Assembly: GCF_024170505.1 (NCBI RefSeq)
Contig: NZ_JALJYG010000002.1
Location: forward strand, 1-64,000
Direction of reading: 5' to 3'
DNA from: Methanocalculus alkaliphilus
GTDB taxonomy: Archaea > Halobacteriota > Methanomicrobia > Methanomicrobiales > Methanocorpusculaceae
Length of the DNA: 64,000 nucleotides
Under the pieces are notes generated by a model, which saw only the letters and a program-made list of their open reading frames with translations, searched no databases and had not been told where the DNA came from. The number at the start of each line of letters is the position of its first letter. Position 1 is the first letter of the stretch. The translations under genes and the position numbers were made by a program. Positions 46,687-58,841 of this stretch are shown piece after piece.

Positions 46687-47382
46687 GATAACGATCTCAG
46701 AGAGCATCTTTCCAAGTTCTGTCAGTTTTATCGAGATATTCCGGCCTCTCTTCTCTTTTTTAATAAAACCTGCCTCTTCAAGCTTTGAGAGATGATGTGA
46801 AAGGCGGCTCCTTTCGCTTCGGAACTGCTTACTGTCCTTCTGGATATCAGGTGTGATCATGAAGATAATGCTGTCAAGTGAATCGACGCCATCTCCTATC
46901 AGGGTGATGATATGCCGCTGTTCTTCTCCCGGATAATCGACCGGGATAACCGGAATCTCAATAATCTCCTCAACACCGACCTCTTCCCCTGCATCGTCAT
47001 ATCTGGGTATGGATGTTATCATTCGGGACCGGGTCATGCAGGCTGCAATGTATGCACCGACTGAAAGTGTACGGAGGGATCCGGATGCGTTGAGGAGGAC
47101 ATCGTTTCCTTTCAGCTTCTCTTCCTGGATAATTTTCAGGAGCTGATTGGAGGCCTTGAGGACGGATTTCTTATCAATTCTTCTGACTTCGATGTCCCAA
47201 AGCTTATTCAGTTCGGTCTGGATATCGTTTGCAACTTTCTTGACGATCTGTTCGCCTGGCAGATTGTCATCCTCTCCTATGATGAGGAAGAGTTTTGAGA
47301 AGGGTATCTCACGCAGGGCACTAATCGACTCGATGAGACGATCCTTATGGTGACCAACGAAGACGAGATGTGTAGTTGGCAT
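46672..47382 (-). CDS. CARF-domain winged-helix transcription regulator (HFX_2341/Csa3-like)
   Basis: A 236-residue protein. The first 150 residues form a Rossmann-like CARF domain (THLVFVGHHKDRLIESISAL at the start and LLNASGSLRTLSVGAYIAAC as the ligand loop). The last 75 form a winged helix (SRLSHHLSKLEEAGFIKKEKRGR). CARF domains bind cyclic oligonucleotides or other nucleotides. Csa3-like proteins control CRISPR genes, but many archaea have stand-alone versions. No cas gene lies in this window. A TATA-like TATATAAT sits about 25 bp before the ATG, suggesting a leaderless transcript, and an array of repeated motifs lies just upstream. Confidence 0.85.
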   Translation of the reverse strand: MPTTHLVFVGHHKDRLIESISALREIPFSKLFLIIGEDDNLPGEQIVKKVANDIQTELNKLWDIEVRRIDKKSVLKASNQLLKIIQEEKLKGNDVLLNASGSLRTLSVGAYIAACMTRSRMITSIPRYDDAGEEVGVEEIIEIPVIPVDYPGEEQRHIITLIGDGVDSLDSIIFMITPDIQKDSKQFRSERSRLSHHLSKLEEAGFIKKEKRGRNISIKLTELGKMLSEIVISKVI

Positions 47383-47423
47383 ATTTGGATATATTGTCTA
47401 TTTAATTATATATCTTTTTTGGC

Positions 47424-47444
47424 ATAAGTTAACTGTATACTTAT
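47424..47444 (-). promoter_or_regulatory. Inverted repeat upstream of the CARF-wHTH promoter
   Basis: ATAAGT at 47424-47429 and ACTTAT at 47439-47444 are perfect inverse complements around a 9-base spacer, with an internal palindrome AGTTAACT (47427-47434). The site lies 10-40 bases upstream of the predicted TATA element of the CARF regulator and directly before the TCTACA array. It could be a dimer-binding site of the winged helix. Confidence 0.45.
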
Positions 47445-47450
47445 CCTTCT

Positions 47451-47603
47451 AGTCTACATAGTATAGTCTACATAAATATCTACATACTATAATCTACATC
47501 AAATCTACATTTTTTTAATCTACATTTTAATATTGTAATAACAATCTACTATTTTTATATCTATACAAGTCTACATATCGAATCTACAGATGACAATCTA
47601 CTG
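47451..47603 (-). repeat. Iteron-like array of directly repeated [A/G]TCTACA motifs
   Basis: Eight exact TCTACA cores occur at 47453, 47467, 47479, 47493, 47504, 47519, 47570 and 47583, with TCTACT variants at 47545 and 47597 and a weak TCTATA at 47560. All have the same orientation and most are preceded by AA or AG and followed by T. Steps are 11-15 bases, with one gap of two units, so the period is about 13. The array fills the otherwise gene-free 47383-47719 stretch upstream of the CARF regulator. It may be a cooperative operator or a replication-type iteron set. It is not a CRISPR array, since there are no spacer-sized gaps. Confidence 0.75.
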
Positions 47604-47719
47604 TTGAATATCAATTCATTAGTATAAATCAAAATCTAAATAATATTGCAATATATAAATATGATCGGAAAAAATTTATTTATATGTGAATATTTTTAAA
47701 AGATTATGTATTTAATATT

Positions 47720-48079
47720 TCATTCTTTCTTTTTCTGTATTCGGTAAACATCCTTGATTGAGTATTCATTAGCTTCCTTAAGGAGGAAATGACTCAGAAC
47801 GGTCCTTATCGCAACAATCGCTCCAAGCAGGAGGACATCCTCAATTGAGGGAGCAAGGATCGTTGCAAGGATGTCGGCTGCTATGATGAATTCGAGACCG
47901 AAGATCAATTTATTTGTGAAATCGATCCGTATTGTATTGTAATATATATTTGTCCGGTGTATCACCTCGATCAGGAGAACTCCGATGGCGGCACGAACTC
48001 CCCCATAGACGATCATGATAGCACCCATAACTTCAAAAAGAATGATGAAAACCGATACAAGCCAGTTCAGATGGTCCAT
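47720..48079 (-). CDS. DUF1622 family membrane protein
   Basis: A 119-residue protein with three hydrophobic segments. It has FIILFEVMGAIMIVYGGVRAA, then IRIDFTNKLIFGLEFIIAADILATIL and IVAIRTVLSHFLLKE, the conserved core of DUF1622. The function is unknown. The gene is followed by the 337-bp repeat-bearing gap and then the CARF regulator on the same strand. Confidence 0.85.
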   Translation of the reverse strand: MDHLNWLVSVFIILFEVMGAIMIVYGGVRAAIGVLLIEVIHRTNIYYNTIRIDFTNKLIFGLEFIIAADILATILAPSIEDVLLLGAIVAIRTVLSHFLLKEANEYSIKDVYRIQKKKE

Positions 48080-48178
48080 ATGGAGGATATCATCACGTGA
48101 AAATGTATAAAGACTATCGATTCCATCTCTTGAGATATTCTCATGTATCTTGGGACAGAAGAATAGTCAGGTACTTGT

Positions 48179-48781
48179 ATGGATGCGAAGGGACGCGTAC
48201 AGGATATGATGAGGCTGATGGCCTCAAAAGTAAGAACAGTTGCAGATACTATTGAGGATGATGAGGTGGACTCATTCATCAGGGAGATACTTGCTGCTGA
48301 GAGGGTCTATGTCATGGGCGCCGGCCGCTCCGGGCTTGTGGCTAAGGCATTTGCGATGCGGCTGATGCACCTTGGACTGCGATCCTATGTTGTCGGTGAG
48401 ACGATCACACCGGCAATTGAGCCCTCTGATATGATCATTGCATTCTCTGGATCCGGAAATACAAAGACTGTTGCGGATATCTCGGAGACTGCAAAAGAGA
48501 TCGGTGCCACTGTCGGACTGATCACCTCAAACAAAGATTCGCGGATCGGTAAGATAGCAGACTCAATCGTCGTTATCGAGAGCCAGCGTGATGCGGTGAC
48601 TGACGACTCTCATGAGTATGAGATCAGACAGATGATGGGGGAGCACAGATCGTTTGCGCCACTCGGAACGATCTTCGAGACGACAGCAATGATATTCTCA
48701 GATGCCCTCGTCTCCCGGCTGATGGAGATCACCGCCACCGATGAAGGAGAGTTGAAGAGACGCCATACAAACATTGAGTGA
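48179..48781 (+). CDS. hxlB: 6-phospho-3-hexuloisomerase
   Basis: A 200-residue SIS-domain isomerase that converts hexulose-6-phosphate and fructose-6-phosphate. The sugar-phosphate motif VMGAGRSGLVAKAFAMRLMHLG, the SGSGNTKTV loop and the C-terminal FAPLGTIFETTAMIFSDALV are typical of PHI. In archaea it works with hexulose-phosphate synthase to make ribulose-5-phosphate and formaldehyde, that is, pentose synthesis. The synthase is not in this window. The aminotransferase gene follows. Confidence 0.92.
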   Translation: MDAKGRVQDMMRLMASKVRTVADTIEDDEVDSFIREILAAERVYVMGAGRSGLVAKAFAMRLMHLGLRSYVVGETITPAIEPSDMIIAFSGSGNTKTVADISETAKEIGATVGLITSNKDSRIGKIADSIVVIESQRDAVTDDSHEYEIRQMMGEHRSFAPLGTIFETTAMIFSDALVSRLMEITATDEGELKRRHTNIE

Positions 48782-57678: not shown

Positions 57679-57811
57679 AATTCTGACTGTTATATCTTAA
57701 TGTATAAATATATTTGTATACATGATATTTGCAGCGAAAATTACGCTATTAGAGCTGACTTTATTAATAAGAATTAATTATACTTGTTTGATAAATTTCA
57801 AAAAGAGATTA

Positions 57812-58525: not shown

Positions 58526-58841
58526 AATCTCTATGGTGTATACTATATTAATTATTATATTAATATTTCTATTATTTTACTGATCTCATAACACCACATT
58601 CTGTCACCATAACGCGGGTAATGGGTCCGGAGATTCGGTTCATAAAAAACCTCCGGCCTTCACCGTATTCGTTTGAAGATGGGCTGAATCAGGGAATTCA
58701 GACAGAAAGATGCCTGATCGAAGCTTAAGGATGCGAATGGTGAATTTGAATAAAAAAACTCCCCCCCCCAAATAGCCGATACATAAGACCGGCTCACCAT
58801 CGGCGCGCTGAGTGAGGGCATAACTATGGTCTAATACCCGA
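58526..58841. other. 316-bp intergenic region between the lipoprotein paralogues
   Basis: No gene is seen. It holds a 6-bp inverted repeat CCGGAG (58627-58632) and CTCCGG (58651-58656) with an 18-base loop, and a run of seven A then nine C from 58752. On the minus strand the seven A read as T, so this could be a T-run terminator for the 58842 gene. The rest is AT-rich and unremarkable. Confidence 0.5.

Follow-up and report, generated by a model that had tools for sequence, protein, structure and literature searches.

A conserved TCTACA repeat array upstream of a stand-alone CARF regulator gene in two Methanocalculus species looks like an unusually large cis-regulatory element

Archaeal activators usually bind upstream of the BRE, and repressors over the promoter or after it (PMC5512572). 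The activator EarA has four 6-bp sites immediately upstream of a poly-A (seven-adenine) BRE in Methanococcus maripaludis (PMC5512572), and one to three sites in Thermococcales (PMC10665913). Ptr2 activation in Methanocaldococcus jannaschii also relies on several sites upstream of the BRE, according to the work cited in PMC5512572. Among CARF-wHTH proteins of methanogens, MM_0565 from Methanosarcina mazei was found to bind its own promoter with a KD of 285 nM and to prefer AT-rich DNA, and no distinct motif was identified for it (PMC7465815). Furthermore, HFX_2341 from Haloferax mediterranei is a global regulator which also occurs in species without CRISPR-Cas; its DNA sites were not determined and no array was described (PMC11434293). 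Stand-alone CARF regulators of the HFX_2341 type are widespread in Euryarchaeota, and our literature search turned up no DNA motif for them.

The window (the whole 64,000-nucleotide stretch of Methanocalculus alkaliphilus DNA analysed here) carries a gene for such a regulator (Table 1). The protein belongs to the same Pfam family as HFX_2341, scoring 52.4 bits with HFX_2341_N (cut-off 30) and 49.1 bits with DUF6293_C (cut-off 27), and the CARF and winged-helix parts span it entirely. In addition, PADLOC assigned it to CARF3 with 349.5 bits. The score for Csa3 (TIGR01884) was 41.5 bits, below the curated cut-off of 60.2. The AlphaFold model had a pLDDT of 88 and its best Foldseek match was Csa3, with modest TM-scores (0.4-0.6), which probably reflect a different or uncertain placement of the two domains relative to each other. 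Like MM_0565, the window protein is a methanogen CARF-wHTH protein, but MM_0565 is associated with a CRISPR locus, whereas the gene described here is not. Neither the CRISPR-Cas context of a Csa3 protein nor a Cas10 source of cyclic oligoadenylate was found: no Cas10 was detected in the genome, and the one Cas1 in it stands alone among housekeeping genes (G000:C4:115762-116568; L204:8763-9569), with no CRISPR repeats or recognisable cas neighbours within 18 kb. The absence of Cas10 and the lone Cas1 without a repeat array suggest that the regulator works outside any visible type III signalling. The original prediction of a stand-alone CARF-wHTH regulator with no cas locus nearby was thus borne out by Pfam, PADLOC and Foldseek, while the sensing of cyclic oligonucleotides that it also proposed found no support, given that the search of this genome for Cas10 found none. 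All eight Methanocalculus genomes contain a Cas1 of this size class (about 312 aa).

Table 1. Coordinates of the features at the CARF locus, and of the candidate origin on another contig
Feature	Position	Strand	Remark
CARF-wHTH regulator gene, HFX_2341/DUF6293 family, 236 aa	46672..47382	(-)	Pfam, PADLOC, fold search
Gene-free gap holding the array	47383-47719		337 bp, 20% GC; from DUF1622 gene to CARF gene
Putative TATA box ATATATAA	47406..47413	(-)	Sequence inspection
Putative BRE AAAAAAG	47414..47420	(-)	Sequence inspection; assignment inferred
Inverted repeat (dyad) TGTAGACT-N9-AGTaTACA	47434..47458	(-)	TATA-proximal array end; includes last core
TATA-proximal conserved array part, 6 cores	47449..47532	(-)	84 bp, 95.2% identical to M. 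chunghsingensis
TCTACA/TGTAGA direct-repeat array	47453..47602	(-)	Core is TGTAGA on CARF coding strand, TCTACA on + strand
Exact TCTACA cores (n=8)	47453, 47467, 47479, 47493, 47504, 47519, 47570, 47583	(+)	
TCTACT variant cores (n=2)	47545, 47597	(+)	
Degenerate core TCTATA	47560	(+)	
DUF1622 family gene, 119 aa	47720..48079	(-)	Codirectional, upstream; stop codon bounds gap
Candidate origin	L033:471-1374, contig C21		Upstream of Orc1/Cdc6

The repeats lie in the AT-rich gap between the CARF gene and the DUF1622 gene. The site positions and simulations confirmed the earlier description of eight TCTACA and two TCTACT cores in a single orientation at regular steps, as well as that of a gap without a gene and a CARF start codon 70 bp from the first site. 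No TCTACA was present on the opposite strand of the gap. The steps between cores were 14, 12, 14, 11 and 15 bp in the compact part and mostly 11-15 bp over the array, so that every second core was about 26 bp apart, in agreement with the 26-bp period given by TRF. By chance, 0.13-0.26 copies of TCTACA would be expected in the gap, compared with the eight observed. None of 20,000 first-order Markov simulations reached eight copies (maximum 4), and in 20,000 random sequences of the local composition no 6-mer with at least two G/C exceeded five copies. Short AT-rich tandem repeats were also reported by TRF at 57701-57731 and 58544-58574 of the window.

The array is unique in the genome. Outside it, the whole window contained six more TCTACA sites, and a three-site TCTACA pattern occurred in the whole 2.09-Mb genome at the array locus only. 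The other TCTACA pairs in the genome were single and isolated (C7:46764 and C28:2169), and the search for a regulon found no multi-site cluster elsewhere. The pair at C28:2169 adjoins an Orc1/Cdc6-family gene; standing alone outside AT-rich DNA, it seems to be a chance occurrence. An order-wide pattern search gave one match in each of five other genomes, all in unrelated sequence and at about the frequency of a reversed control. A mobile or multicopy element was rejected, as a DNA search of the genome and the genus returned a single locus, and a structured RNA was rejected after an Rfam scan of 47300-48200 gave no match.

In the direction of the gene, the distal cores come first, followed by six close-packed cores, the dyad, 13 bp, the BRE-like AAAAAAG, the TATA box, 23 nt and the ATG. 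The dyad, an addition to the sites listed in the original prediction, has the consensus TGTAGACT-N9-AGTnTACA over both array-bearing species and is perfect in M. chunghsingensis (TGTAGACT-N9-AGTCTACA); one copy was found in each of the two genomes with the array, and none in the six other Methanocalculus genomes. With 23 nt between the putative TATA box and the ATG, the CARF transcript is apparently leaderless or nearly so, its start site being placed from this distance. The array thus lies 5' of the BRE and TATA box (both assigned by inspection) without overlapping them, which is the layout of repeated upstream activator sites.

We consider, with a probability of about 0.6, that the array is a lineage-specific multi-site cis-regulatory element of the CARF-wHTH gene, of the upstream-activator type. 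It would offer ten to eleven half-sites with the core TGTAGA at steps of about 13 bp, ending in the dyad 13 bp upstream of the BRE. A sequence-specific protein would fill these sites cooperatively from the dyad outward and, because the sites lie upstream of the BRE and TATA box without overlap, would most likely recruit TFB or TBP to the weak-looking poly-A BRE, activating transcription as Ptr2 and EarA do. The many sites could make the response steep or robust. We infer protein binding, activation rather than repression, and cooperativity from this arrangement. Compared with Ptr2 activation, to which it is similar in having several sites upstream of the BRE, the locus differs by its ten to eleven predicted sites in one regular array. 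Such an array would be a larger-than-usual case of archaeal multi-site upstream control.

Among single candidates for the binder, the CARF-wHTH protein itself comes first, although we put this forward only tentatively. MM_0565 binds its own AT-rich promoter, which makes autoregulation the best single guess, and the lack of any other multi-site cluster in the genome favours a local circuit and, with it, autoregulation. On the other hand, dimeric wHTH proteins do not usually have operators made up mainly of direct repeats. It is improbable, in our judgement, that a cooperative, ligand-gated oligomer of the protein covers its own ten-site array, forming a bistable nucleotide-responsive switch without CRISPR.

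Alternatively, a factor other than the CARF protein, perhaps a nucleoid protein or an activator of the EarA type, might use the array as its platform and so tie CARF expression to another programme. This is a sub-case of the cis-regulatory reading, with which its probability overlaps, and it seems to us possible but somewhat less likely than autoregulation. The EarA motifs TACATA and A(C/G)(C/G)TACA(T/C) are similar to the core TCTACAT, a poly-A BRE like that of the CARF promoter is typical of EarA targets (PMC10665913, PMC5512572), and archaellins are present in the genus. Moreover, the locus shares with the EarA arrays of Methanococcus and Thermococcales the short TACA-core repeats immediately upstream of a poly-A BRE and TATA box. 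However, the present array has ten to eleven sites compared with one to four, that is, two to three times more, and it precedes another gene. Relative to the gene, the repeats point the opposite way from the published EarA motif; only the proximal arm of the dyad is an exception. In the two array-bearing species and four congeners, the promoters of the archaellum held no TCTACA array; the motif is thus not repeated ahead of the archaellum operon of the same genome, and membership of the EarA regulon is not supported. The lack of a regulon of multi-site clusters elsewhere in the genome also argues against this possibility.

The CARF gene was single-copy in all eight Methanocalculus genomes and was present in 30 of the 231 genomes of the order. 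The array accompanied it in two of the eight, the window species and M. chunghsingensis, and was absent from every more distant CARF orthologue with an extractable upstream region (12 distant loci were left out). The six array-less Methanocalculus genomes all share another promoter element, GATCCATRGAAA followed by TATA and ATTCAA, which the array-bearing species lack and which is possibly the ancestral CARF operator. This element, also written (T)TTGATCCATRGAAA..TATA..ATTCAA, was seen at loci L006, L007, L008, L009, L010 and L024, where it overlaps the BRE and TATA box within about 60 bp upstream of the CARF start. G005, the closest relative without the array, has a CARF protein 89% identical to that of the window and a DUF1622-CARF gap of about 125 bp. 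The AT-rich gap could not be aligned with its counterpart in G005, which prevented the definition of a clean empty site for an inserted stretch of about 210 bp. The presence of the array in two of eight genomes, the other element in the remaining six and the shorter gap of G005 indicate that the array is confined to a sub-lineage: either the ancestor of the two species acquired it or G005 has lost it.

That six of the eight orthologues lack the array counts against the cis-regulatory reading, and it implies that the CARF gene does not generally need the array; a motif travelling with the gene in two of eight congeners is not a general autoregulatory operator. The original prediction of a general signalling unit made of CARF protein and array therefore failed its own test, as the repeats were absent from orthologous loci. 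The link that it drew between protein and array is weak as a general rule for the same reason, whereas a lineage-specific operator in the two species was not contradicted. The array gives tractable access to a CARF regulator that is independent of CRISPR. Being compact and conserved in a species pair, and with orthologues lacking it to serve as natural controls, it is a ready binding target, and it offers a test of whether CRISPR-independent CARF proteins autoregulate and which ligand they sense.

As only two species carry the array, its conservation rests on one pairwise comparison, between the window species and M. chunghsingensis, and this counts against the cis-regulatory reading. The two loci share their gene order and 88% identity over 12.7 kb. 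Within the six-core part of the array, cores were 97% and spacers 94% identical. Identity was 86% in the core promoter, 59% in the distal array and 54% in the rest of the gap (47606-47719), and 52-69% at the fourfold-degenerate sites of four neighbouring genes. Of 1629 overlapping segments of the same length, 72 reached the identity of the proximal array, its own segments included, and some of these are coding; it is a fair statement that the proximal array is as conserved as the best-conserved coding stretches. In the distal array, all four M. chunghsingensis cores lay within 2 bp of a window core, which was obtained in 1.4% of random placements. The 95% identity of the proximal 84 bp, compared with 54% in the adjacent intergenic DNA and 52-69% at fourfold sites, points to selection on the array, and the distal cores, kept within 2 bp despite base drift, point to a held spacing. 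In this species pair, both the sequence and the spacing of the array appear to be held by selection.

These results bear on the possibility that the array is a functionless neutral minisatellite or the remnant of an inserted element. Its restriction to two sister species and the gap of 337 bp compared with about 125 bp in the next relative would suit such an origin, and a 13/26-bp period could come from slippage. However, synonymous sites and the remaining non-coding DNA of the gap are all less conserved than the proximal array, the cores hold register in the diverged distal part, and no other copy exists in the genome, so that we regard neutrality as unlikely, clearly more so than binding by another factor.

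The weakest alternative, a replication origin in which initiator-bound iterons open the AT-rich gap, goes back to the original prediction. It would suit the regular one-orientation repeats in DNA of 20% GC, and has a parallel in some IMG/VR phage genomes with arrays of the same hexamer (TGTAGAAG, steps of about 10 bp) near large primase-helicase genes, but it is very improbable, because the gap holds no ORB motif, none of the four Orc1/Cdc6 genes above the family cut-off is on the array contig and no initiator gene is near, contig C21 has an ORB-type origin ahead of the best Orc1/Cdc6, GC skew has no clear inflection at 47.5 kb, six congeners lack the array, and the phage arrays differ from it in step and flanks. 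The C21 locus has five boxes of 21-23 bp (TCTCCAGTGGAAATAAAGGGGT) in both orientations (four direct, one inverted) with an AT-rich core, and is the probable chromosomal replication origin of this Methanocalculus. ORB boxes in both orientations around an AT-rich core are a known plan of archaeal origins (PMC4010727).

In the viral scan, matches were mostly coding repeats, besides some phage arrays that differ from the window array in core and step. TGTAGAA-like arrays with steps of about 10 bp were observed at L097:7336-7482, L125:3182-3328, L082:9441-9588 and L052:4757-4903, those of L097 and L052 close to a large DnaG-like primase-helicase gene. These viral arrays are candidate phage origin iterons with the same hexamer.
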